A stretch of DNA of 64,000 nucleotides from Acidobacteria bacterium Mor1. Its GTDB lineage: Bacteria; Acidobacteriota; Polarisedimenticolia; Polarisedimenticolales; Polarisedimenticolaceae. Positions 48,642 through 63,649 of the stretch are shown here, one piece after another. The DNA lies in assembly GCA_001664505.1 (NCBI GenBank), contig CP011806.1, positions 5,323,873-5,387,872 on the forward strand, given 5' to 3'. Below the pieces are notes generated by a model that did no database searches, had not been told where the DNA came from, and worked only from the letters and a program-made list of their open reading frames with translations. The first letter of the stretch is position 1; each line of letters opens with the position of its first letter. The translations under genes were made by a program, and so were the position numbers.

Positions 48642-50980
48642 GGCCTGGCTCGCTCCAGCCGCGCCAGCGTTCGTTCGCTCTGCGCGACCAAGGACGCAAA
48701 GCGCGGGTGACTGCGGATCGGCTCGAGGTCGGAGTCCTGCTTCATGAGTTCGGGGCGGGCCCAGCCGGCGTCCACCGATTGCTTCAGCCGTTCGATCGCC
48801 TGCTGCGGTTCACCGCGGAGCGATTCGTAGCAGGCCATGTTGTAGAGCACGGTTTGTACGTTGGGATGGGTCGGGCCGTGGACCCGGGTCATCGACTCCA
48901 GCGCTTCGGTGTAGAGCGGCTCCGCCTCGTCCCAGCGTTGAAGCGACTGGTAGATGTAGGCCAGGTTGCTGATCGAGCGCATGGTCGCGGGGTGCTCGTC
49001 CCCCTGGACCTTGCGCCGCGCCGCCAGGGCGTCCTCGAACATCGGCACCGCATCGTTGACCCGGCCCTGGCGGAAGTAGAACCGGGCCAGGTTGTTGAGG
49101 TAGTCGATGGTCTCGGGGTGATCGTCGCCGTGGCGCTGCCGCTGAGCTTCGAGGGACTCGAGGTAGAGCGGTTCGGCTTCGTCGGGGCGGCCGACATCGT
49201 CGTAGAGCACGGCGAGACTGTTCATCAGGCGAAGCAGCGCTTGATCGCCGGGGGGCAGCAGGCGCTTCAGTCCCTCGTAGGATTCGAGGTACAGCGGTTC
49301 GGCCTCTTCGAACCGCTGCTGTTGGCGGTAGACGAAGCCGAGCCGATCCATGGTCGAGAGGGTGTGCCTGTGGTCGTCGCCCAGGACCCGGCGTTGGGTC
49401 TCGAGGGTCTCGGTAAACAGGCGTTCCGCTTCGGCCAGTTCCCCCTGGCCGAATCTGGTGGCGGCGAGCTGCGCCCGGGCGTCGAGGGTCTTGAGGTGCT
49501 CCTGCCCCAGGCTGTGCTCGAAGGTTTCCAGCGCCTGCTCGATCAAGGGCGACGCCTGATCGAAGAGTCCCAGGTGGGCGTAGACCTCGGACATGGTGAA
49601 CATCAGTTCGCCGCGAGTCTCCGGTTGGTCGACGAGCATCGTGTCGATCCGGGCGGCGCCGCTATCCAGCACCTCCCGTGCGGTGATGCTGTTGCCGCGA
49701 GCTTCGCTGGGGCGCGACACCCGGAAGAGTTCCTTCAAGAAGTCGGAGACCTGTCCCTTGGCTTCTGCCTCGGCCCGGGCCCTGGCCTCTGCGGCCACCG
49801 CACGTTGTTCGGCCCGCTGGGCTCGCACCATGCCGACGGTCGCGGCAATCGCGCCACTGACCAACGCCAACAGCACCAGGGTGCCTGCCAGGACGCCGAC
49901 CCGGTGGCGCCGCATCGCCTTGCCCAGGCGGTAGCTCAATCCCGGAGGCCCGGCCAGGACCGGTTCACCCTTGCGGAAACGGTCGATCTCGGCGGCCAGC
50001 TCCGAGGGGGTGCCGTAGCGCCGGGTGCGGTCCTTTTCCAGGGTGCGCATCACGATCCAGTCCAGGTCGCCGCGCAGCCGCCGGGCCAGCGATCCCGGGT
50101 CGGTGCGCCGTGACCGGGCGATCTTCGCGTCGAGCTTGCTGGCCCGGGTGCTGGGGCGGGGCGGATCGGTTTCGCGAATCATCTGCCGCATCGCGTCCCA
50201 GCCGGCTTCCCGCAGCTCCTTGGACTCGAAGGGCAGACGCCCCACCAGCAGTTCGTAGAGCAGCACTCCGAGGGAGTACACGTCGGTGCGGGTGTCGACG
50301 TCGAGTTCCGATCGCTCGGCTTGCTCGGGGCTCATGTATTCCGGCGTGCCGATCTGCTGCCCGAGTTCGGTGTAGACCGTGTGTTCGGTGAGCCGCTGGG
50401 CGGTGGCCTTGGCCACGCCGAAGTCGATGACCTTGGGGGTCGGTTTGCCGTCGCTCATCGAGACCAGCACGTTGGACGGCTTGAGGTCCCGGTGAATCAC
50501 CCCCTTGTGGTGGGCGTGCTGCACCGCGTCGCAGACCCGCACGAACAGGTTCAACCGTTCGTCGGTGCTCAGCCGTTCCCGGTCGCAATACTCGGTGATC
50601 GGAACGCCGGGGACCAGCTCCATGACGAAGAAGGGGCGGCCGTTCTTCGTCGCCCCCGCGTCGAGCACCCGGGCGATGTTGGGGTGCTCCATCAACGCCA
50701 GCGCCTGACGCTCCGCCTCGAACCGGGCGATGACCTCCCGGGTATCCATCCCGCGCTTGATCAACTTGAGGGCGACACGCCGCTGCACAGGGCGCAGCTG
50801 TTCGGCCTCGTAGACCTCGCCCATGCCCCCTTCGCCGACCTTGCTCAGCAGGCGGTAGTTGCCGATCTCCCGGGGTGCATCGTCGACGGCGCCCTGGAGC
50901 AGGCAGTGGGGGCAGATACCGCCGGCGCGTCCGGAGGCGGGGAGGTCCTTTCCGCAGTCAGGACATCGTTCGCTTTCCAT
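48614..50980 (-). CDS. Membrane Ser/Thr protein kinase with N-terminal zinc ribbon and TPR tail
   Basis: A 788-residue kinase. A zinc ribbon begins it ([21 protein letters not shown]). The kinase domain, about 40-310, carries [40 protein letters not shown] and [12 protein letters not shown], all intact. A transmembrane helix ([20 protein letters not shown]) is followed by TPR repeats to the C-terminus. Similar in layout to the 31825-34482 kinase. The gene overlaps the ECF sigma factor tail to tail by 28 bp. TAGAAT lies 6 nt before its ATG. Confidence 0.92.
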
Positions 50981-50986
50981 CGGCGA

Positions 50987-50992
50987 ATTCTA
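50987..50992 (-). promoter_or_regulatory. Putative -10 box (TAGAAT) for leaderless start at 50980
   Basis: On the minus strand TAGAAT is followed by TCGCCG and then ATG, a 6-nt gap. Confidence 0.5.
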
Positions 50993-51154
50993 CAACCGAA
51001 CCGGTGTGCTCCCGTCGGCCGATGGGGCGGTGAGAGCCGCGGAACTTCGGAGATGTCGCCGAAGATTGCACTATTCGCGGAATGAGGCAGAGCCTGCGAG
51101 CGAAAGTGTGCCGCCAGGAGGACACTGGTGGCGGTCGTTCTCCAGCCCGCGGCT

Positions 51155-54100
51155 TTACTGGACGCGTAACCCCTCGGGGGCGTCCGGCGTCGTCGGTCCG
51201 GTGCCGCCGCCGACCTGGGTTTCGTTGGAGTATCCGCCCTCGCCGCCGGCTGCATCGATCGCGGTGACCCGGTAGTACCAGGTGCCCGCGGCGACGTTGT
51301 CGCTGAAACCGGCGTTGGAGGTCGTACCTACCTGGGTGAACCCACTGCCCGCCGTCGAGCTTCGATAGACCGCGTAGCCGGTGACGTCGCTCTCCAGGCT
51401 CGCGTCCCAGCTCAGGTCGATCCGGTTGCCGTTGCGATTGCCGCTGAGTCCGGTGAGTGCTGCCGGGAAGTCGTCGATCTCGGCGACCCAGACCTGGGCG
51501 GTGCCCTGAGAGATGTTGGGCGTGCGCACCCAGACGATTCGATCGCCCTGAATGTGCGGGTCGTTGTCTTCCAGCAGGCTGCGGGTGACCCGCCGTTCCT
51601 CGTCGAAGGTCAGGTCGTAGAGGAATACGTCCCACTGGCCGGTGGAGTGCCGCTGGTCGCGCCAGACCACCTTGTCGCCGTAGAGATGCGGGCGGCCCTG
51701 GGTGCCCGGCGCGTTGCTGACCACCCGCTCCTGCCCGCTGGCCAGGTCGTACAGATAGATGTCGGTGGAGCCGGTGCGGCTGTCGCCGTAGACCACCTGC
51801 TGCTCGTAGATGTCGGGATGCAGCGTCTGTCCGACCCCGCCGAGGTTGAGGTCGGTCTCGACGCCGGTGGCCAGGTTCTTGACGCTGATGCCGAATGGAG
51901 CGTCGTTGTTGAGGTAGACCATGCGGTCGCCCCAGATGGCCGGCGCTTCCTGCTGGCCGCCGAAGGTGAGCTGCTGGTTCTGGCCGGTGGAAAGATCGTG
52001 GCCCCAGATATGGGCCTGACCGAGACCGGCCCGGGCATCGACCCAGACGATCCGGTCGCCGAAGACGTCGGGGGTGACCTCGGCGGAGAAGCCGTCGGTG
52101 ATCTCCGTCTCCTGGTCCGAGGCCAGGTCGTAGTGGGAGATGTCGTAGGTATCGACCGGGTCCGGGGTCTCGAACAGATCGGCCCAGACGATCGAGTCCC
52201 CCTGGATCATCGGCGCGATCTCCACGCCGACGCGGCTGGTCACCTGGCGCTCCTGATCGGCGGCCAGGTCGTAGATGTAGATGTCCGGGAAGTCCCGCAG
52301 ATTGCGCTCATCGGCCCAGGCGATGCGGTCACCCCAGATCGTGGCGTTGTACTTGCGGCCCGCTGCGCTGGTCAGTTCCCGGGACTCGAAGCGGTAGGAG
52401 TAGGCCTCCACCGGGCGCACGGTGCGATTGTTCTGTTCGAAGTACTCGGCAACCTGATTGCCCCGGTCGACCACGGCGTAGAGGGTGCGGCGTCCCCGGG
52501 AGGGGAGGTCGATCAGGATCTGCCGGGTCACGGCGGATCCCGCCCCCAGGTTGGAGAGGGTGTCGCTGTAGAGCAAGGTGCCGCCGGCACCCGGGTCTCC
52601 GTCGAAGACTTCGAGAGTGACGTTGCTCGCGCCTTGCTGGCCGGCGTTGCGTGCGGTGACCGTCACCGGGAGCGGCGCTCCTACCGCGACGGTGGCCTTG
52701 CCCACCTGCAGGTCGGCGATCAGCTCGACCCGGTTGGCTGCGGCGTCGGCCTGCTGCACTGCGCGGAAGGCGTTGATCCGGCCCCAACCGAACAGATCGT
52801 CGAAACCGCCGCTCCCCAGGTCGTCGGCCGAGGCCTGAATCACCGCCCGGACCATCTCGTTGGAGAGATCGGGCTGCTGCGACAGCACCAGGGCGGCCAG
52901 ACCGCTGACGTGGGCGGCGGCGAAGGAGGTGCCGCCGTCCCGGTAGTAGCGGTCGCCGACCCGCTGGAACACGACGCTCTGGTTCTGGGCGGAGAGGGTC
53001 GAGAGAATGTTCAGGTGGTTGAAATTCGGATCGCCGACGTTGTCGTCGGACCCGGGGGCGGTGACGTCCAGGTTGAAGCCGAAATTCGAGGCGAAGTAGA
53101 TCCGGTCGTCGTGCTGCACGGCGCCGACCGCGATGGTCTGATCGAGGCACGCGGGGAAGCTGGCCAGATCGTCGTTGAGCTGGGAGATGTCGTTGGCGCA
53201 GTCGCCGATCTCGCTGCCGGAGTTGCCGGCCGAAACGACGATCACCGCGCCGAGGCCGTGGGCGTAGGCGATGGCGTCCCGCAAAGCCTGAGGCGCCTCT
53301 CCCTTGTTCGACAGGCTGATGTTGATCACGTCGGCGCCGTTGTCCGCGGCGTAGGTGATGCCCTGGATCAGCGCGGTCAGGTTGGTCGCTCCGGTGTCGG
53401 TGGAGACCTTGACCGCCATCAGCTGTACCTGCCAGACCATGCCCGCGATCCCGGTTCCGTTGTCGCCGACGGCGCCGATGACTCCGGCCATCAACGTGCC
53501 GTGCTGGAAGCGGTCGGTCACGTCGTTGTTGTTGAGGGCGAAGTTCCAGCCGGAGACGTCGTCGACGTAGCCGTTGCCGTCGTCGTCGACGCCGTTCCCC
53601 GGAGTTTCGCCGGGGTTGTTCCAGGCGTTGCCGGCCAGGTCCTCGTGGGCGAAATCGATGCCGCTGTCGATCACGGCGACGACCAGGTTCGGGTCGCCGG
53701 TCTGGAGATCCCAGGCCCGGTCGGCCTCGATGTTCTGCAGGCGCCACAGGTCGGGATAGGTCTGCCCCCACGCGCCGCTGCTCCAGCTTCCGTCCTGTTC
53801 CGGGTCGGCGTAGGTGTCGTCAGGGACGGCGTCGAGATGCAGCGCCACGTTGGCCTCGGCGTGGCGCACCTCGGGAAGCTCCCGGAGATGTTTGGCGACC
53901 CTGGCCGGGTCGATGTCGGTGGCGAAGCTGACCTTGCCCCAGCGAGCCAACGCCGGCATCTGCGGTTGCCGCGGGGCGCGGCCGCTGCGGCGGGTGAAGG
54001 TCGCGCGCACGGCGGCTTCCGATTGGGGCACGCGGAACAGTCGTTGGCCGGGGCCGAAACCGTAGGCCTCGAGTTCCGGGTATCGCGCCTGAATCTGGCT

Positions 54101-54301
54101 CCAACTCACGCCGTCATGAAGCTGGATCAGCACCTCGCCGGGTGCGGCCTCGGCGCCCCTGGCCGCGGGTGCGTTGTTTCCGGGCAGGGGAGTGTCGCCG
54201 GCGGCGCCGAGGGGCGCCCATAGAACAAGGAGCGTCAGCAGCAGTACCGACTGCCGTGCGGCTCGTTCTTGCCTGGATGCTCCCGGTCGGCTGGCGCTCA
54301 T
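51155..54301 (-). CDS. Secreted S8 protease with CARDB, beta-propeller and fibronectin III domains
   Basis: About 1048 residues from the ATG at 54301; a GTG at 54328 is an alternative. After the signal peptide and a pro-region of about 130 residues, the subtilase domain has D (VVAVIDSGIDFAHEDL), H (FQHGTLMAGVIGAVGDNG) and S (DGGTSFAAAHVSGL). Then come a CARDB-like domain (LQVGKATVAVGAPLPVTVTA) and TolB-like propeller blades (DIYIYDLAADQERQVTS and similar). A fibronectin III domain follows (LSWDASLESDVTGYAVYRSS). The protein stops at PDAPEGLRVQ, just as another such domain would begin, so the C-terminus may be truncated. Confidence 0.9.
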   Translation of the reverse strand: MSASRPGASRQERAARQSVLLLTLLVLWAPLGAAGDTPLPGNNAPAARGAEAAPGEVLIQLHDGVSWSQIQARYPELEAYGFGPGQRLFRVPQSEAAVRATFTRRSGRAPRQPQMPALARWGKVSFATDIDPARVAKHLRELPEVRHAEANVALHLDAVPDDTYADPEQDGSWSSGAWGQTYPDLWRLQNIEADRAWDLQTGDPNLVVAVIDSGIDFAHEDLAGNAWNNPGETPGNGVDDDGNGYVDDVSGWNFALNNNDVTDRFQHGTLMAGVIGAVGDNGTGIAGMVWQVQLMAVKVSTDTGATNLTALIQGITYAADNGADVINISLSNKGEAPQALRDAIAYAHGLGAVIVVSAGNSGSEIGDCANDISQLNDDLASFPACLDQTIAVGAVQHDDRIYFASNFGFNLDVTAPGSDDNVGDPNFNHLNILSTLSAQNQSVVFQRVGDRYYRDGGTSFAAAHVSGLAALVLSQQPDLSNEMVRAVIQASADDLGSGGFDDLFGWGRINAFRAVQQADAAANRVELIADLQVGKATVAVGAPLPVTVTARNAGQQGASNVTLEVFDGDPGAGGTLLYSDTLSNLGAGSAVTRQILIDLPSRGRRTLYAVVDRGNQVAEYFEQNNRTVRPVEAYSYRFESRELTSAAGRKYNATIWGDRIAWADERNLRDFPDIYIYDLAADQERQVTSRVGVEIAPMIQGDSIVWADLFETPDPVDTYDISHYDLASDQETEITDGFSAEVTPDVFGDRIVWVDARAGLGQAHIWGHDLSTGQNQQLTFGGQQEAPAIWGDRMVYLNNDAPFGISVKNLATGVETDLNLGGVGQTLHPDIYEQQVVYGDSRTGSTDIYLYDLASGQERVVSNAPGTQGRPHLYGDKVVWRDQRHSTGQWDVFLYDLTFDEERRVTRSLLEDNDPHIQGDRIVWVRTPNISQGTAQVWVAEIDDFPAALTGLSGNRNGNRIDLSWDASLESDVTGYAVYRSSTAGSGFTQVGTTSNAGFSDNVAAGTWYYRVTAIDAAGGEGGYSNETQVGGGTGPTTPDAPEGLRVQ

Positions 54302-54476
54302 GCTTGCCCCTACCCCGAATAGTCCCACTCGTCCAAAAATCTAGGGAATCTACCCTGATCTCTGCAACAGCGATGCCGCCGGTTCGGCGGCCACCCCGGG
54401 CCGGGGCGCGTAGAGAATACCCGTTTCGTGATCGAAAGTACCGGGTCAGACCTTCCCGGGGGTGCCCGGCGGTGGC

Positions 54477-55226
54477 TCAGCGCAATTCGGCCAGGATCGT
54501 CTCGGGGCGGACCCGGACGCGCCAGTTGTCGGTCAGCTCCCGCCAGGTGACGTCGCGCTGCTCGTCGAGGATGAAGACCGCGGGCCGGGAGATATCGGTG
54601 TCGGGCAGCCCGTCCTCGTGAAGCAACCCGAGTTTGCCGATCAACTCCAGGTTCGGATCGCACAGGACGGGGAAGTCGTAGCCCTGGGCCTCGATCGCCT
54701 CCCGCGATTCTTCGGGGTTGTCGGCGCTGACCGCGACCACCTCGGCGCCCAGGCTGCGGATCTCATCGATGCGTGACTGCAAACCTTGCAGTTCGGAGAG
54801 GCAGAACGGTCACCAGTAGCCGCGGTAGAACACCAGCACCACCTTGCGGCCGTCGAAGCTCGCCAGGTCGAAGGACTCGCCCCGGTGGGTTTGGAGGCTG
54901 AAGTTCTCGATCCGCGAGACTCCCGCTGCGGTTTCTCCCGTAGGCATCTGATAGCTCAAGACGAAGACGTAGAAACCGAACAGGCCGAGGAACCCGACCG
55001 ACAGCAGGGTGCCGAGTATGCCGAAGATCTTCGAGGCCAGGCGGCGGCCCTGGCCGAAGGCTCCGAACAGGCCTGCCAGGGAGAGAGCGACACCGAGTAG
55101 CGCCAGCGGCAGGTTGAGCCAGGGGAAGTCCCGCAGCGCAGGGATCGCGGCAAAGACCATGAAGTAGCTGATTACCGCGGCGAGGGTGACCAGCGGGCCG
55201 AGCCAGATGAAGTGCAGCCGGCTCAC
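54477..55226 (-). CDS. Membrane-anchored redoxin selenoprotein (in-frame TGA = Sec in UxxC)
   Basis: A 249-residue protein if TGA at 54812-54810 is read as selenocysteine; otherwise the gene splits into 138- and 101-residue pieces in the same frame. Residues 1-95 hold about three transmembrane helices. The redoxin (AhpC/TSA) domain follows, with VVLVFYRGYW-U139-PFC142-LSELQ. Cysteine homologues read FYRGYWCPFC, so Sec replaces the first active-site Cys. The sequence after the TGA continues the fold without a break (VVAVSADNPEESR, SRPAVFILDEQRDVTW). The start GTG overlaps the ccoS stop by GTGA, and it is the last gene of the cbb3 oxidase operon. A thiol/selenol redox role in oxidase or copper-site maturation is plausible but inferred. 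Confidence 0.9.
54776..54792 (-). promoter_or_regulatory. Candidate bacterial SECIS hairpin
   Basis: Starting 17 nt after the TGA on the mRNA, ACTGCAA-GGT-TTGCAGT forms a perfect 7-bp stem with a GGT loop (or AGGTT if the last pair opens). The E. coli fdhF element has a similar apical loop containing GGU, read by SelB. Distance and loop both fit the known bacterial pattern. Confidence 0.75.
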
Positions 55227-55393
55227 GGTGCCTTGGGCTTTCCGCTATCCGGATCCTGATCGTCGTGCAGCACCCGCATCGCCGGAGTCTCCATGTCGTC
55301 GAACTGGCCGGCCCGCGCCGCCCAGACGTAGGCGACCACGGCGATTCCGGCCATCAACAGAGCCAGCGGAAACAGGATGTAGAGCACTTCCAT
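55223..55393 (-). CDS. ccoS: cbb3 oxidase assembly protein CcoS
   Basis: A 56-residue gene read directly from the minus strand. It begins MEVLYILFPLALLMAGIAVV, one transmembrane helix, then AYVWAARAGQFDDME, the CcoS signature with the conserved GQFDD. The tail is acidic. CcoS is needed for cofactor insertion in cbb3-type cytochrome oxidase. It lies 21 bp after ccoI, and its stop overlaps the GTG start of the selenoprotein. Confidence 0.93.
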   Translation of the reverse strand: MEVLYILFPLALLMAGIAVVAYVWAARAGQFDDMETPAMRVLHDDQDPDSGKPKAP

Positions 55394-55414
55394 GGTGTCC
55401 GCTCCCAGGCGAGT

Positions 55415-57847
55415 CTAGAAGGTGCGCGAACGATACGACAACGTGACCACCGTCAGTGAGCTGATCGGCATCAGCACCGCCGCGATCAGCGGGTTGATCA
55501 ACCCCGCCACGGCCAGACCGCCGGTGACCAGATTGTACGCCAGCGAGGCCGCCATGTTGCGGCGAACCACGCCCATGGCTCGCCGGGAGCCGTCGATCAG
55601 CTCGACCAGCGGCGCGAGCCCGGGGCGGCTCAGATAGACGTCGGCGGCGCTCAGGCTGGCCTCGGCACCCCCCTGGACCGCCACGCCGACGTCGGCCGCC
55701 GAGAGGGCCGCGGTGTCGTTGACCCCGTCGCCGACCATGATCAGGGAGCCTTCGTCCCGGCGCAGAGCCTGGACGTGGCGGGCCTTGTCTTCCGGGGCGA
55801 CCCGCCCGTGAACCGCCTCATCCTCGAGGCCCAGGGTGCGGCCGATCGCCCGGGCGACCCGGGGATCGTCGCCGGAGATCATGCCCAGGTCGAAGCCCCG
55901 TTCCCGCAGGGCTTCCAGGGCGCCTGCCGCATCGGCTCGCAACGGGTCGCCGATTCCGGCGACGGAGACGACCTCCCCGTCCACGGCAATGCAGACCGGG
56001 GAGAGACCGGAAGCGATGACGTCACGCTCCCAGCCGGCTGCCCGAGAGGGGAGGCCGTCCGGCGCGGTGAAGGTGGCGCTTCCGATGCGTACTTCCCGGC
56101 CTTCGCAGCGGCCCGCGACCCCTTCGCCCGGGGCGTAGCGGATCCCCGAGCAGGCCACCGGGGCGCCGGCGCGCTCCCGTCCGGCCTCGACGAACGCGTG
56201 GGCGATCGGGTGGGCGACGCCCAGTTCCAGGGCGGCCGCGTAGCGGATGGTGTCGCGATCACCATGCAGCTCGATGAGCTCGGTGCGTCCTTCGGTCAGG
56301 GTGCCGGTCTTGTCCAGCAGCAGCCGGCCGTGGCGTGCCAGGGTTTCGATGGCCTCGCCCCCCTTGATCAGGATTCCCTTGCGGGCCGCCCGGCCGATGG
56401 CCGCGACCAGGGCCAAGGGCGTGGCGAGGCCGAGGGCGCAGGGGCAGGTCACGATCAGGAGGGCGATGGCGTTCTCTACCGCCGCGTCGGGGTCGACCCA
56501 CCACCAGCCGAGTAGCGTCGCCGCGGCCACGCTGAGCACCACCAGAACGAAGCGGTGGGCCACACGGTCGGCCAGGCGCACGACGCGCGGACGGTCCCGG
56601 GCGAAGGACTCGACCAGGTTCATCAGCCGTCCGACCCGGGTCTCCGCGCCGGTGCTGTCGACCCGGATGCGCAAGGGGGAGCCGAGGTTGGTCGTACCGG
56701 CGAAGACCCGGTCCCCGGGTTCGACGTTGACCGGCTCCGATTCACCGCTGAGCAGGGACAGGTCGAGACTCGAACGCCCGTCCTGGACTTCGCCGTCGCC
56801 GGGGATGCTCTCTCCGGGCAGCACCTCGACCCGGTCACCGGATTCGAGTGCCTCGACCGGGACATCCTCCAGGGAGCCGTTCCGCTGCACCCGATGCACG
56901 ACCCCGGGGGTCAACCCGTAGAGCAGGGCGACGGCATCGTGGGCCGCGTGTTGCTGGCGCTGCATCACGTAGCGTCCGACCAGCAGCAGGAAGATCACCG
57001 CGGTCAACGACTCGAAGTAGGTTTCCCCGGCGCCGCGCACGGTGTTGACCGCACCCCAGATCGTCCCGGCGGCCAGGGCCAGCGCAACCGGCAGATCCAT
57101 GTGCATCACGCCGGTACGGATCGACGCCCGGGCGCCGGCGAAGAAGGTGCGGCCGGGCCAGATCACCGCCAGCAGCGTCAGCCCCAACCCCGACCAGCGG
57201 AACAGTTCCCGGTACTCCGCCTCCATCCGGTCGAACATCCCGGCGAAGAGGGCGAAGGACATCAACATCACGTTGGCCGCGAGAGCTCCAGCCACGGCCA
57301 TACGCACCAGCAGACGGCGGGATTCCCTGCGGCGGATCTCGTCGAGGGGGGAGCCGACGTAGGGACGCGGCGTGTAGCCCAGGGAATCGAGGGTCTCGGC
57401 GATCCGGGACAGCCCGACCCGGGAGGGATCCCAGACGACCTGGGCACGCTTGCGGCCGAAATCGACCTGGATCGAGTTGATCCCGTCGACGACCCGGGGC
57501 GTGTGCTCGATCAGCCAGATGCAGGCAGCGCAGTGCATGCCCTCGAGTTGCAGCTCGATGCGCCGCAGGTTGCCGGGAAGCTCTTCGACGTGGCGCTGTT
57601 GAAAGGCGTCATGGTCGAAGGTGGCGAAGCTGCCCCCATCGGGGTTGGCCTGCAGGCCGGCTTCTTCGTCTCCCCGAAGCGAGTAGTAGCGGTCGAGGCC
57701 GAAGCCGCGGATGGTCTCGTAGACTGCGCGGCAGCCGGCACAGCAGAACTGGTGTTCCGCTTCGGCATCGTAGAGACCGGCCGGAACCGGCAGCCCGCAA
57801 TGATCGCAGGCGTCGGGAGCCAGCGGCTCCTGGCGCAGCACGCTCAC
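55415..57847 (-). CDS. ccoI: Copper-transporting P-type ATPase CcoI/FixI
   Basis: An 810-residue P1B-type ATPase. The start is GTG at 57847, overlapping the upstream stop by GTGA. The N-terminus has a cysteine-rich zinc/copper module (CDHC at 14-17, CCAGC at 35-39) and an HMA domain with C106-A-A-C109. Then come eight helices with the CPC motif in VTCPCALGLATPLA, the phosphorylation site DKTGTLTEG near 508 and GDGVNDTAALSAADVGVA. All catalytic motifs are intact. CcoI exports copper for assembly of the cbb3 binuclear site; position between a TauE/SafE-like gene and ccoS agrees. Confidence 0.94.
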   Translation of the reverse strand: MSVLRQEPLAPDACDHCGLPVPAGLYDAEAEHQFCCAGCRAVYETIRGFGLDRYYSLRGDEEAGLQANPDGGSFATFDHDAFQQRHVEELPGNLRRIELQLEGMHCAACIWLIEHTPRVVDGINSIQVDFGRKRAQVVWDPSRVGLSRIAETLDSLGYTPRPYVGSPLDEIRRRESRRLLVRMAVAGALAANVMLMSFALFAGMFDRMEAEYRELFRWSGLGLTLLAVIWPGRTFFAGARASIRTGVMHMDLPVALALAAGTIWGAVNTVRGAGETYFESLTAVIFLLLVGRYVMQRQQHAAHDAVALLYGLTPGVVHRVQRNGSLEDVPVEALESGDRVEVLPGESIPGDGEVQDGRSSLDLSLLSGESEPVNVEPGDRVFAGTTNLGSPLRIRVDSTGAETRVGRLMNLVESFARDRPRVVRLADRVAHRFVLVVLSVAAATLLGWWWVDPDAAVENAIALLIVTCPCALGLATPLALVAAIGRAARKGILIKGGEAIETLARHGRLLLDKTGTLTEGRTELIELHGDRDTIRYAAALELGVAHPIAHAFVEAGRERAGAPVACSGIRYAPGEGVAGRCEGREVRIGSATFTAPDGLPSRAAGWERDVIASGLSPVCIAVDGEVVSVAGIGDPLRADAAGALEALRERGFDLGMISGDDPRVARAIGRTLGLEDEAVHGRVAPEDKARHVQALRRDEGSLIMVGDGVNDTAALSAADVGVAVQGGAEASLSAADVYLSRPGLAPLVELIDGSRRAMGVVRRNMAASLAYNLVTGGLAVAGLINPLIAAVLMPISSLTVVTLSYRSRTF

Positions 57848-58566
57848 CGTTGGCTCGCACAGCAGGATGGGGCGGCGTGGATGTCGACCGGTTCGGCGGC
57901 GCGCAGCGGCGGCATGTCGAATCGAGAGGAGATGGTCAGCAATCCGACCACCACAAGCGCGGTCGCCGTCAGCGCCGGAACGAAGCGCAGCGCCGGCCCG
58001 GCAAGGCGGCGGGCCAGCACGCCCAGAGCGGTCAGGACCGGCAGGGTGCCCAGCCAGAAGGCGACCATCAGGGCCGCGCCGTTCCAGGCCGATCCGCTGC
58101 CTGCCGCGGTCACGACGAAGGCGTAGAGCCAGCCGCAGGGCAGCAGGGTCGACGCCGCGCCGATCGCCAGGGCCCGGGGCATCGGAGGCACGCCCTCGAG
58201 GGAACGGTGAACGGCGGCGGACAGCCGGCGCAGAAACCCGGGAGGTTGGAAACGCGCCAGCCGTATTCCCGACAGGCGCAGCAACGACACCAGTCCGAAG
58301 GCGACCATCGCCCCGCCGGCCGCGGCCAGAGCCAGACGCTGCACGCCGAACACCGCGCCGCCGAAGTCGAGAGCGGAGCCGACCACCCCGGCCACGAGCC
58401 CCAGGGCGGTGTAGCTCAGCAGGCGCCCACCGTGGTACACCGCGACCCGACCGGCCGAGGGGCCGCGGGTACCCACGGCAAAGGCGACGAAGGGCCCGCA
58501 CATTCCGGCGCAGTGCAGCGAGCCGGTCAGGCTCGCGACCAGTACCGTGAGGAACAGTGCGGTCAT
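57844..58566 (-). CDS. TauE/SafE-like membrane protein of the cbb3 assembly cluster
   Basis: A 240-residue membrane protein with about six helices. It opens with MTALFLTVLVASLTGSLHCAGMCGPF, whose HCAGMCG motif is characteristic of the metal-linked TauE/SafE group found in cco clusters. The C-terminus is Cys-rich (AAPSCCASQR). A role in copper handling for the oxidase is proposed in the family; the exact function is not settled. It overlaps ccoH and ccoI by 4 nt each. Confidence 0.9.
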   Translation of the reverse strand: MTALFLTVLVASLTGSLHCAGMCGPFVAFAVGTRGPSAGRVAVYHGGRLLSYTALGLVAGVVGSALDFGGAVFGVQRLALAAAGGAMVAFGLVSLLRLSGIRLARFQPPGFLRRLSAAVHRSLEGVPPMPRALAIGAASTLLPCGWLYAFVVTAAGSGSAWNGAALMVAFWLGTLPVLTALGVLARRLAGPALRFVPALTATALVVVGLLTISSRFDMPPLRAAEPVDIHAAPSCCASQR

Positions 58567-59060
58567 TGCCGTGCGTCCCGAGGTTCGGTCACGACGCTCT
58601 TGCGGAAGCGGTCGACGTAGAGGTCATCCCCCCGTTCGATCCGCACCCGGAATTCCCAGACGCCGGCACGTTGCAGGGGAAGCAGGTCGCTGTAGAGACC
58701 GTCTCCTTGATGAGGAAGCTCCCAGCCCCGGAGGTCGCCGAGCCGGGCGTTGTGGAACCCTTCCAGGTGCACGCGGGCATCGTCGATCGCCGCGCCCAGT
58801 TCATCGACCGCTTCCAGGCGCAGTTCGACCTGGCCACGGGTCGTCGCCGGCAGAGCCCGTAGCTTGACCTCCCAGCCGAGGGCCTCGCTTTGTTGCCGTT
58901 CCCGCTTGAGGGCATCCCACTCCAACGCCTTGCGTTCGTATTCGGGCTCCAGGGCGAAGGACGGGTCGCTGGAGGCGATGACGATCATGGCCGCCTGGAT
59001 ACCCACCGACAGCAGCAGCAGACCCACGACCAGGCCGATCCAGACTCTTCCGTTGTTCAT
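58563..59060 (-). CDS. ccoH: FixH/CcoH family protein
   Basis: A 165-residue protein with one N-terminal helix (VWIGLVVGLLLLSVGIQAAMIVIAS) and a periplasmic beta domain (VELRLEAVDELGAAIDDARVHLEGFHNAR). This is the FixH layout, a protein that accompanies CcoI and CcoG in cbb3 oxidase assembly. It overlaps ccoG at the start (ATGA) and the TauE-like gene at the end. Confidence 0.9.
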   Translation of the reverse strand: MNNGRVWIGLVVGLLLLSVGIQAAMIVIASSDPSFALEPEYERKALEWDALKRERQQSEALGWEVKLRALPATTRGQVELRLEAVDELGAAIDDARVHLEGFHNARLGDLRGWELPHQGDGLYSDLLPLQRAGVWEFRVRIERGDDLYVDRFRKSVVTEPRDARQ

Positions 59061-60478
59061 CGTGTGCCTCCCTGCGGCATGTTGCCGCGGTTGCCGCCGG
59101 AGTAGAGCGGCCCCATCAGGTGGTGGGGGAAATTGCGGTCGAATTCGGCGCCGTCCTCGACACGGACGCCGATGTCGGCGCGGCCCTCGGCGAACCGGTC
59201 CGGCGCGACGGTCAGGTGCAGGGTGATCTGGCCCGAGGCTCCCGGTTCCAGCAGCAGCGGCAGGTCGCCGCTCCGTTGTTCCCGGACGCCGTCGACGGTG
59301 ACCCGGTAGCTCCGGGCCGACTCATCCCGGTTGACGATCTTGATCAGCAGGGTGCTGGTGATGTCCCCCGAGGGCAGCACCTGGTAGGGCTGGCCCCGAT
59401 GCCGGAGGAAGGAAACGTCGGCGCTGCCCTTCTTGGCCAGGGTCAGGCTGAACAGGCTTACCAGCACGATCAGCGCCAACGGATAGACCACCACCCGAGC
59501 CCGGAGCAGCCGGGAGCGGCCTTCTTCCATCGCCTGCTGGGAGCTGTAGCGGATCAGGCCGCGGGGCTTGCCCACCTTGTCCATGATCGTGTCGCAGGCG
59601 TCGATGCACTGAGCGCAACCGATGCACTCGAGCTGCAGGCCGTCGCGGATATCGATGCCGGTGGGGCAGGTGACGACGCAGGCCTTGCAGTCGATGCAGT
59701 CTCCGGTACTTGCCGGAGCGTCTTTCTTGAGCTTGCCCCGGGGTTCCCCCCGTTTCACGTCATACCCGATGATCAGCGATTGACGATCGAGCAGCACCGA
59801 CTGGAAGCGGCCGTAGGGGCAAGCCAGGGTGCACATCTGCTCACGGAAGAAGCAGAAGTCGATCATCATCAGCAGCGTCGTTCCAGCCATCACCAGAAAG
59901 GCCGCCGGATGAGACAGCGGGCTCTGCCGCACCCACTGAGCCAGGGTCTCCACCCCGACGAAATAGGCCAGGAACACGTGGGCCAGGAACATCGAGATCA
60001 GGAGAAAGGTCAGGTACTTGCCGATAGCACGTGGGGCGCTCAGCGGGACCCGGCCGCCGGACTTGTAGTGCTTGCCGTCGAAGAAGCGCTCCACCGGCCG
60101 GTAGACCAGCTCCATGTAGACCGTCTGGGGGCAGCCCCACCCGCACCACACCCGGCCGAAGAGCGCCGTCAGCAGGAAGATCGTGACGAAGATCGTCAGC
60201 AGCAGGAAGGCCAGCAACAGGGTGTCGGTGGGCAGGAAGGTGCGGCCGAAGAAGGTGAACTGCCGGTTCGGCAGATCGAGCAGCATCGCCGGCTTGCCGT
60301 TGATGCGGATATAGGGCAATGCCGCGAACAGAACGATCAGGGCATACCCGACCGCCTTGCGCCCGATCAGGAATCGTCCCGGGGAGAGGCGCGGACGGAG
60401 CCAGCGGCGCGATCCGTCCTTGTTCAAGGTCGCCAGGACCCGCTCTTCGGCGGTTGGGATCGAGTGTGGGTTGCTCAT
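59057..60478 (-). CDS. ccoG: Cytochrome oxidase accessory protein CcoG (RdxA/FixG)
   Basis: A 473-residue membrane iron-sulfur protein; a GTG at 60496 is an alternative start. There are about five helices, a polyferredoxin-like region with the motif VWCGWGCPQTVYMELVYRPVE, and FREQMCTLACPYGRFQ. Two 4Fe-4S motifs follow: CIDCKACVVTCPTGIDIRDG and CIGCAQCIDACDTIMD. The C-terminal part is an Ig-like periplasmic domain. CcoG reduces copper(II) in cbb3 maturation. It is preceded by a strong hairpin at 60503-60530. Confidence 0.94.
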   Translation of the reverse strand: MSNPHSIPTAEERVLATLNKDGSRRWLRPRLSPGRFLIGRKAVGYALIVLFAALPYIRINGKPAMLLDLPNRQFTFFGRTFLPTDTLLLAFLLLTIFVTIFLLTALFGRVWCGWGCPQTVYMELVYRPVERFFDGKHYKSGGRVPLSAPRAIGKYLTFLLISMFLAHVFLAYFVGVETLAQWVRQSPLSHPAAFLVMAGTTLLMMIDFCFFREQMCTLACPYGRFQSVLLDRQSLIIGYDVKRGEPRGKLKKDAPASTGDCIDCKACVVTCPTGIDIRDGLQLECIGCAQCIDACDTIMDKVGKPRGLIRYSSQQAMEEGRSRLLRARVVVYPLALIVLVSLFSLTLAKKGSADVSFLRHRGQPYQVLPSGDITSTLLIKIVNRDESARSYRVTVDGVREQRSGDLPLLLEPGASGQITLHLTVAPDRFAEGRADIGVRVEDGAEFDRNFPHHLMGPLYSGGNRGNMPQGGTR

Positions 60479-60502
60479 GGTGCGACTCGCTTCCACCTCG
60501 AG

Positions 60503-60573: not shown

Positions 60574-61182
60574 TTACTCGCCGGCGTTCTCGTCGATGCC
60601 GGCGGCCGACGCTGCGGGCCAGGCGGGAATCGGATCGCCCTCGGGCGCCTTGCCCGGCAGCGGGTTCTCGCGGAGATGGGCCACGTAGGAGCTGACCAGC
60701 ACCAACTGGGTTTCGGTGAACTGGTCTCCCCAGGCAGGCATGCCCTTGGTGGTGATCCCGGTGCGGATCACCTCGGCAATGTCGGTGACCCCCTTGACGT
60801 TCTTCCAGTGATCGTCGGTCAGGTTGGGCCCGACACTGCCGGAACCGTCCGCCAGGTGGCACTGGGAGCACTTGCCCTTGAACAGGCCCTTCATCGCCAG
60901 CATGGCGTTCTCGTCTTCCATCATCCGCAGGATCGTCGGTTCGTCGACGCTGAGGTCCCCGTAGGTAGCCAGCAGCTTCTCGGCGTAGGCCGCCTGCTCG
61001 GCTTCCAGGGCGTCGAGGATCGAGGGGCCGTTGCCGATGTGGTACCAGAGCACGTAGGGGAAGGCGAACAGGGCCGACAGGACGAACATCCAGACCCACC
61101 AGGCGGGCATCGGGTTGTCGTACTCGCGGATCCCGTCGTACTCGTGATCGAACAGCTTGTCGTGATAAGGCTCTTCGGCCAT
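60574..61182 (-). CDS. ccoP: cbb3 oxidase subunit CcoP, single-haem form
   Basis: A 202-residue membrane cytochrome c; the start has GGAGGA 5 nt upstream. The N-terminus HDKLFDHEYDGIREYDNPMP is the CcoP signature, followed by one helix (WWVWMFVLSALFAFPYVLWY). A single haem site is present (GKCSQCHLADG), then PNLTDDHW and KGMPAWGDQ with the Met ligand. Most proteobacterial CcoP subunits have two haem sites and about 300 residues, so this is a short form. It passes electrons to CcoNO. Confidence 0.93.
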   Translation of the reverse strand: MAEEPYHDKLFDHEYDGIREYDNPMPAWWVWMFVLSALFAFPYVLWYHIGNGPSILDALEAEQAAYAEKLLATYGDLSVDEPTILRMMEDENAMLAMKGLFKGKCSQCHLADGSGSVGPNLTDDHWKNVKGVTDIAEVIRTGITTKGMPAWGDQFTETQLVLVSSYVAHLRENPLPGKAPEGDPIPAWPAASAAGIDENAGE

Positions 61183-61193
61183 GGGTTCCTCCG

Positions 61194-61393
61194 CTACTCC
61201 GGACGGGTGGCGTGGTCGACGCCTTGGGGTTCGTCTTCCAGCGGGATGCGTGATGCGCGCTGGAACATTTTCGATTTGCTGAAGCAGAGCCACAGCACCA
61301 GGCCGGTGAAGGAGATGAAGAAGACCAGCATCAGCACGGTCTTGATCTGGGTCACCGCGGACTCGGTAATGGCCAGGAGGGCGATGGCGGCGT

Positions 61394-61397
<4 letters not shown>
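61194..61397 (-). CDS. ccoQ: cbb3 oxidase small subunit CcoQ-like
   Basis: A 67-residue membrane protein with one helix (VLMLVFFISFTGLVLWLCF) and a short polar tail containing RASRIPLEDE, the usual CcoQ form. It overlaps the ccoNO stop by ATGA. It stabilises the complex in other bacteria. Confidence 0.88.

Positions 61398-63649
<2,252 letters not shown>

Follow-up and report, generated by a model that had tools for sequence, protein, structure and literature searches.

A predicted membrane-anchored redoxin selenoprotein with an in-frame TGA in Acidobacteria bacterium Mor1 and its relatives

The window analysed here is a stretch of 64,000 nucleotides (nt) from Acidobacteria bacterium Mor1 (contig CP011806.1, positions 5,323,873 to 5,387,872), and all coordinates below are those of the window unless another sequence is named. 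On its reverse strand lies a gene, which we call the selenoredoxin gene, that most probably (about 0.88 by our estimate) encodes a 249-residue membrane-anchored selenoprotein: its internal UGA would be read as selenocysteine (Sec, U) by the Sec machinery of the genome with the help of a predicted selenocysteine insertion sequence (SECIS), and the product would act as a periplasmic oxidoreductase with a UxxC active site. A preliminary description, made from the DNA letters alone, had reported a membrane-anchored redoxin interrupted by a TGA and had interpreted the TGA as selenocysteine. The observation is confirmed, and the interpretation is supported by the sequence comparisons given below.

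The gene and its in-frame TGA

Re-reading of the frame returned the coordinates and the 249-residue joined protein first described. The sequence 55226-54480 (-) is a single frame of 249 codons, with a GTG start at 55226-55224, codon 139 as its sole internal TGA, and a second TGA as the terminal stop (54479-54477, -). The residues around codon 139 are FYRGYW-U-PFC, i.e., a UxxC site with Sec first. The features of the gene are as follows.

54477-55226, reverse strand: selenoredoxin gene from its GTG start through the terminal TGA, 249 residues (reading frame; the start matches the ATG of most homologues in the alignment)
54810-54812, reverse strand: in-frame TGA, codon 139, predicted selenocysteine (TGA here in 11 aligned homologues and also in 79 of 80 loci)
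54801-54812, reverse strand: UPFC active-site motif, Sec139 and Cys142 (Cys142 in 57 of 57 aligned rows)
54776-54792, reverse strand: predicted SECIS hairpin ACUGCAA-GGU-UUGCAGU, with its loop at 54785-54783 (24 nt from the UGA)
55158-55214, reverse strand: membrane helix 1, residues 5-23 (AlphaFold2, hydropathy)
55059-55115, reverse strand: membrane helix 2, residues 38-56 (AlphaFold2, hydropathy)
54963-55040, reverse strand: membrane helix 3, residues 63-88 (AlphaFold2, hydropathy)
54543-54911, reverse strand: AhpC-TSA/redoxin domain, residues 106-228 (PF00578, 98.8 bits; cut-off 26)
54582-54587, reverse strand: Arg214-Pro215 (Arg in 57 of 57 rows, Pro in 55 of 57), the proline presumably cis, as in Trx folds

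The fold had also been said to run unbroken across the TGA, behind three membrane helices, and both statements held. PF00578 matched the protein in one stretch, the AlphaFold2 model of the joined protein is confident throughout (mean pLDDT 95.0, pTM 0.87, no residue below 50), and three helices precede the domain in the model, with three main peaks in the Kyte-Doolittle profile. Downstream of the TGA, residues C142, S144, E145, D190, R214, and R238 are invariant in the 57 aligned rows.

Conservation of the TGA in relatives

The aligned sequences indicate that the TGA is conserved in homologues of several phyla. In a first sample of 100 genomes, Mor1 included, 95 matched the protein at E 0.001, in most cases only over the redoxin domain. 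Twelve rows matched best, that of the window and those of 11 homologues; they span the helices too (L031 without its first residues), and each carries one in-frame TGA, all at one alignment column. A second sample, searched with a profile, comprised 396 genomes of the phylum, again including Mor1. Among the matches listed, 16 rows scored at least 291 bits at near full length and two further genomes held the gene in two pieces; a TGA was found in each of the 16 rows (the count for Mor1 including the gene's own stop), in both two-piece genomes, and, among the lower-scoring rows, in the distant multi-helix matches G367 and G376.

The third sample came from a named genome collection with 502 stretches encoding relatives, from which the best 80 loci were kept. 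The Sec codon is TGA in 79 of these and TGC in one (L115); a regular expression left 10 of the 80 unclassified, and tblastn resolved all 10. In the 70 loci for which this was measured, the site is followed by at least 113 open codons. Homologues and loci sharing the TGA are 35-51% identical, and the locus titles name Acidobacteriota, Verrucomicrobiota, Planctomycetota, Myxococcota/Deltaproteobacteria, and a few others, with L096 titled 'Candidatus Polarisedimenticola svalbardensis'. Plasmid records gave 165 matches to the protein, none spanning 80% of the query.

Two expectations of the preliminary description could be examined here. Decay of the downstream sequence in relatives, which would have spoken for a stop, was looked for in these loci and none was seen, the TGA being followed by a long open frame. 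Cysteine does align with the TGA in homologues, namely as TGC in L115 (at 2696-2698 of that locus) and as CPxC in the more distant L036, L040, L044, and L046. In a tree of 57 chosen rows (43 Sec and 14 Cys, 13 of the latter being database proteins read as protein only), L115 is the sister of the Sec row L110 (support 100/94), and at least nine changes between Sec and Cys are required.

The predicted SECIS hairpin

As set out in passages of PMC13188914, the bacterial SECIS model has a loop of 3-9 nt with a G in its first two positions, a stem of 4-16 bp, a UGA-to-loop distance of 16-37 nt, and an energy of -7.5 kcal/mol or lower. The window hairpin agrees with this geometry, having a GGU loop, 7 bp, and a distance of 24 nt. 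An Rfam scan of 50000-60000 returned two chance-level matches and none to a SECIS family.

We surveyed the placement of the hairpin in 108 distinct site sequences, five of them with Cys, from three-helix and soluble relatives (the 10 loci left unclassified by the regular expression are absent). A hairpin at the window's place was present in 19 of the 108, two of which (L029 and L122) fit a second place about equally well; the second place, AACUCCG-AGUUR-CGGAGUU at 16 nt, was occupied in 50, and the remaining 39 fit neither place at 6 of 7 pairs. Pairing was counted on rows selected for each place, a selection that itself raises the percentages. At the window's place, 16 of the 19 rows (L115, L029, and L122 left out) are 99.1% paired. 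At the second place, 31 of the 50 rows are 96.8% paired, with a covariation score reached by 1 of 500 shuffles. A third place, GCARCUC-GGU-GAGYUGC, was 98.4% paired in nine soluble relatives chosen by eye, its score reached by 3 of 500 shuffles; these rows (L033, L035, L037, L038, L039, L041, L045, L047, and L049) are UxxC redoxins of the phylum that are without the three helices. In the Cys form L115, the stem is kept and the loop is GAU in place of GGU, as in a relict hairpin.

We examined synonymous codon choice in the clade of the window (16 genes, of which 15 remained after removal of a near-copy; L100, L104, and L114 have other stem letters). At stem codons +7, +8, and +11 after the TGA, pairs with the same residue share the same synonym in 100% of cases against 26, 53, and 54% expected from the genes' own usage, and at codon +10 in 66% against 26%. 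The loop codon +9 (GGN) is free (32% against 31%), and codons +5 and +6 are at expectation. Fixed stem codons around a free loop codon are the pattern of a GGN-loop hairpin, and this putative SECIS-type constraint adds independent evidence for reading the TGA as Sec. Over the 17-nt stretch, itself selected on the same data, the mean folding z in the window's clade was -2.14, and at seven other places the values were -0.75 to +0.33. In a wider set (59 of 71 genes, with L115 included and the 10 unclassified loci absent), the 39-nt z was -1.11 against -0.22 to +0.17, and the fixed codons +4 AAC and +8 CGG correspond to the second hairpin group. Farther downstream, codons +27 and +28 (54726-54731, -; ATC and AGC in most of the 59 relatives) share a synonym at 0.87 and 0.63 against 0.45 and 0.20 expected.

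Selenocysteine machinery

The preliminary description named the absence of Sec machinery as evidence that would count against selenocysteine. All four components were found in the Mor1 genome (5.985 Mb, one contig): selA (442.6 bits), selB (330 bits, above cut-off), selD (358 bits), and tRNA-Sec (72.7 bits against a gathering threshold of 47). The genome also holds at least three further TGA-bearing candidates. One is SelD itself, with one in-frame TGA (CAG-U-ASK); the others are L178, a FYRGGW-U-PYC redoxin with a signal-like N-terminus, and L179, a peroxiredoxin-like protein with STPG-U. Across genomes carrying the three-helix family, selA was found in 17 of 17 and selB over cut-off in 16 of 17. 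Two loci have a selD-like frame, recognised by eye, beside the selenoredoxin copy in head-to-head orientation (L050 10903-11898 and L051 3447-4442).

Predicted fold and function

The UxxC site, the conserved Arg-Pro, and an active site that departs from the peroxiredoxin motif suggest that the protein is likely a periplasm-facing selenothiol-disulfide oxidoreductase. The canonical peroxiredoxin active-site motif is PxxxT/SxxC. In the phmmer alignment to 2cx3, Arg135 and Sec139 occupy the peroxiredoxin Pro and Thr/Ser positions, so that this motif is lacking, and Pro215 aligns with an Arg of 2cx3.

With a cytoplasmic N-terminus, three helices would place the redoxin domain outside. SelB would bind the GGU-loop hairpin and bring Sec-tRNA to the UGA; in the finished protein, the selenolate of Sec139 would attack an oxidised substrate, either a disulfide or a peroxide, and Cys142 would resolve the product as a selenenylsulfide. 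DsbD-type proteins (DsbD, CcdA) are natural electron donors to periplasmic redoxins, and re-reduction could come from cytoplasmic thioredoxin through such a membrane protein, either the DsbD_2-family protein of the gene cluster described below or a CcdA-type homologue elsewhere in the genome (at 1354059).

The same selenoprotein might instead act mainly as a membrane-tethered peroxidase (GPx/Prx-like) shielding the cell surface or an oxidase from peroxide. The best solved folds for residues 98-249 in a fold search are mostly peroxiredoxins, so that the protein may have peroxidase activity, but with the peroxiredoxin Pro and Thr/Ser replaced by Arg135 and Sec139, and Pro215 standing where 2cx3 has Arg, we regard a mainly peroxidatic role as rather unlikely. 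It also sits poorly with PMC1088965, which, in the part that treats them, sets the UXXC of Prx-like proteins against the TXXU of Sec-Prx.

Genomic context

The selenoredoxin gene is the last of a cluster for a cbb3-type oxidase, with the order ccoN-ccoO fusion, ccoP, ccoG, ccoH, DsbD_2, ccoI, ccoS, selenoredoxin. Its GTG start shares 4 nt with the end of ccoS, the gene before it (GTGA, 55226-55223).

55223-55393, reverse strand: ccoS/fixS, whose last 4 nt are also the first of the selenoredoxin gene (PF03597, 68.7 bits)
55415-57841, reverse strand: ccoI-type copper P-type ATPase, start approximate (PF12156, PF00403, PF00122, PF00702)
57844-58566, reverse strand: DsbD_2-family membrane protein, candidate transmembrane electron donor (PF13386, 131 bits)
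58563-59060, reverse strand: ccoH/fixH (PF05751)
59057-60496, reverse strand: ccoG/fixG (PF13746, PF11614)
60574-61293, reverse strand: ccoP/fixP (PF14715, PF13442)
61394-63649, reverse strand: ccoN-ccoO fusion, cbb3 oxidase subunits I and II (PF00115, COX1, and PF02433, FixO, in one 751-aa frame)

A reading of 57844-58566 as a TauE-type exporter was set aside on the Pfam DsbD_2 match. On the other side, the next gene downstream on the same strand is a large S8 subtilase that carries a CARDB domain (51155-54328, -). The region 54200-55500 gave no sigma-70-like promoter and three terminator-like sites (0.7 expected), none of them between the selenoredoxin and the next gene.

Our hypothesis is that the selenoredoxin may take part in assembly of the oxidase. 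The gene may be co-translated with the cbb3 cluster, as its 4-nt overlap with ccoS suggests, and, by a weaker step, its product may reduce copper- or haem-ligand thiols for the oxidase. A protein dedicated to this task, taking electrons from DsbD_2 and keeping the ligand thiols reduced, would fit its place at the end of the cluster and the DsbD_2 gene within it; the relatives speak against such a role. No cco gene was found near the copies of the 11 relatives (some on short contigs, one of 4.3 kb), and in the 80 loci, with flanks of up to 5 kb, none was found except one P-type ATPase at L099, which by eye we judged to be a generic copper pump and rejected as a cco linkage. The oxidase link would then be lineage-specific or accidental, and dedication to oxidase assembly seems doubtful.

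Nor did clustering of the neighbouring frames in 70 loci and 12 others yield a partner conserved family-wide. Of the clusters shared by at least seven loci, almost all are from a single verrucomicrobial group; two others, of six loci each, contain common ABC-F and response-regulator-like genes (named by eye) in varying orientation. As the shared clusters are either confined or generic, the context provides no general partner.

Protein databases and other readings of the TGA

The full protein was expected to escape gene finders, and at the protein level this is borne out. A single-sequence search returned 156 database proteins. Those listed, 120 in number, have lengths of 137-180 residues, and every one stops at [FY]RGxW, the motif immediately before the TGA. 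The listed entries are thus cut at the active site, and the databases present the redox enzyme minus its catalytic half, in many cases as a 'hypothetical protein'. In a profile search, 7996 candidates were scored and 1440 proteins found; in the 120 listed, read as protein only, the site is the Cys of a GCRAC motif in 93, RGxW-C-xxC-like in 7, W in 18, G in 1, and lacking in 1. The W and G entries (P0123, P0125, and others) suggest genes called under codes 4 and 25.

We would like to note the points that weigh against the selenocysteine reading. The energy of the window hairpin is borderline, at -6.4 kcal/mol for the 17 nt and -7.8 with 39 nt (model -7.5), and its z values are -0.62 (61 nt), +0.78 (39 nt against synonymous recoding), and -1.17 (17-nt hairpin). 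The 39-nt z in the window's clade, -0.45, lies within the controls (-0.62 to +0.44), and 10 of the 59 genes of the wider set reach p 0.05 alone; at the window's place 6 of the 7 pairs never vary, and the covariation score was reached by 55 of 500 shuffles. Among relatives, the distant multi-helix match G169 has no stop and reads RGNW-C-PLC (CPxC), the GCRAC Cys clade makes up the 93 of 120 entries given above, and the search pattern L[VI]FYRG[YH]W adjoins the site and so under-samples Cys forms with other motifs. As for the machinery, selA also occurs in 15 and selB in 16 of 20 genomes that do not have the family, so the co-occurrence is consistent with the Sec reading and discriminates little, and G039 carries the gene yet has no selB over cut-off.

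Nevertheless, readings of the TGA without selenocysteine fare far worse. Were it a true stop, the product would be a 138-residue membrane protein followed by a decayed or unused domain (a pseudogene, a strain mutation, or a sequencing error). A listed public protein of exactly 138 residues and 90% identity (P0002) agrees with this, as does a window hairpin that is not unusually stable by itself. Yet the TGA recurs, at 35-51% identity, in 11 homologues and in all but one of the 80 loci, the one exception carrying TGC; the domain behind it keeps its invariant residues, and synonymous codons of the stem are fixed. We consider a true stop very improbable. That UGA is read as Trp or Gly under a variant code, as the W and G entries might suggest, can practically be dismissed, the window gene and 5 of the 11 homologues themselves terminating with TGA, the genome holding four Sec genes, the DNA-checked exception being Cys, and the hairpin showing SECIS-type constraint.

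Comparison with known systems

Prx-like UxxC selenoproteins were already known in the 2005 Sargasso survey, according to the relevant part of PMC1088965. In the descriptions available from PMC1088965, PMC2398784, and PMC13188914, these proteins ('Prx-like thiol:disulfide oxidoreductase' PF00578; 'Redoxin family protein' PF08534; GOS Prx-like 1 and 3) likewise have a PF00578/PF08534 domain and a Sec-first UxxC, whereas the window family adds three N-terminal membrane helices and a conserved loop of the FPxTRDFPW type. The two are set apart here by description (reference WP_010940744.1) and not by sequence comparison. Neither 'transmembrane' nor 'membrane' appears in the main text of PMC2398784, although this paper does describe Prx-like 2 and 3 as fused to unknown domains.

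Among other redoxins, TlpA and ResA likewise have a Trx fold and a CxxC-type site, and a ResA chain is matched at E 1.2e-8, although the ResA model NF002854 falls short of its cut-off (41 bits against 170). TlpA and ResA have one helix as an extracytoplasmic tether; the window protein differs in having Sec for the first Cys and three helices. From the PrxQ/BCP and AhpE peroxiredoxins it differs in its active site (Arg135, Sec139, Pro215). The best NCBIfam match, the SelL-related redox protein NF040769, is below its cut-off (49 bits against 120), as it is in six relatives (30.7-64.1 bits). The GCRAC Cys clade likewise belongs to the three-helix family, with full-length entries mostly covering 90-98% of the query, but by its protein sequences has Cys at the Sec site.

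A broader picture, which we offer as speculation and think quite unlikely as a whole, is that of a large overlooked selenoprotein subfamily forming the periplasmic end of a selenium-dependent relay (from a DsbD-type donor to the three-helix Sec redoxin to extracytoplasmic thiols) and recruited here into a cbb3 assembly operon. If true, selenium would be required to build a respiratory oxidase, and a terminal oxidase would be tied to selenium in a way that can be tested. The family is in any case a target for curation, as none of the seven three-helix members tested passes an NCBIfam cut-off; its differing hairpin positions within one protein family offer a natural SECIS series, and the Sec/Cys sister pair L110 and L115 could show what Sec adds. 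Our literature searches, which covered main texts in part and no supplements, found no description of a three-helix subfamily. Thus, UxxC Prx-like selenoproteins as such were already known, and what appears to be new here, as far as sequences can tell, is the three-helix Sec subfamily.
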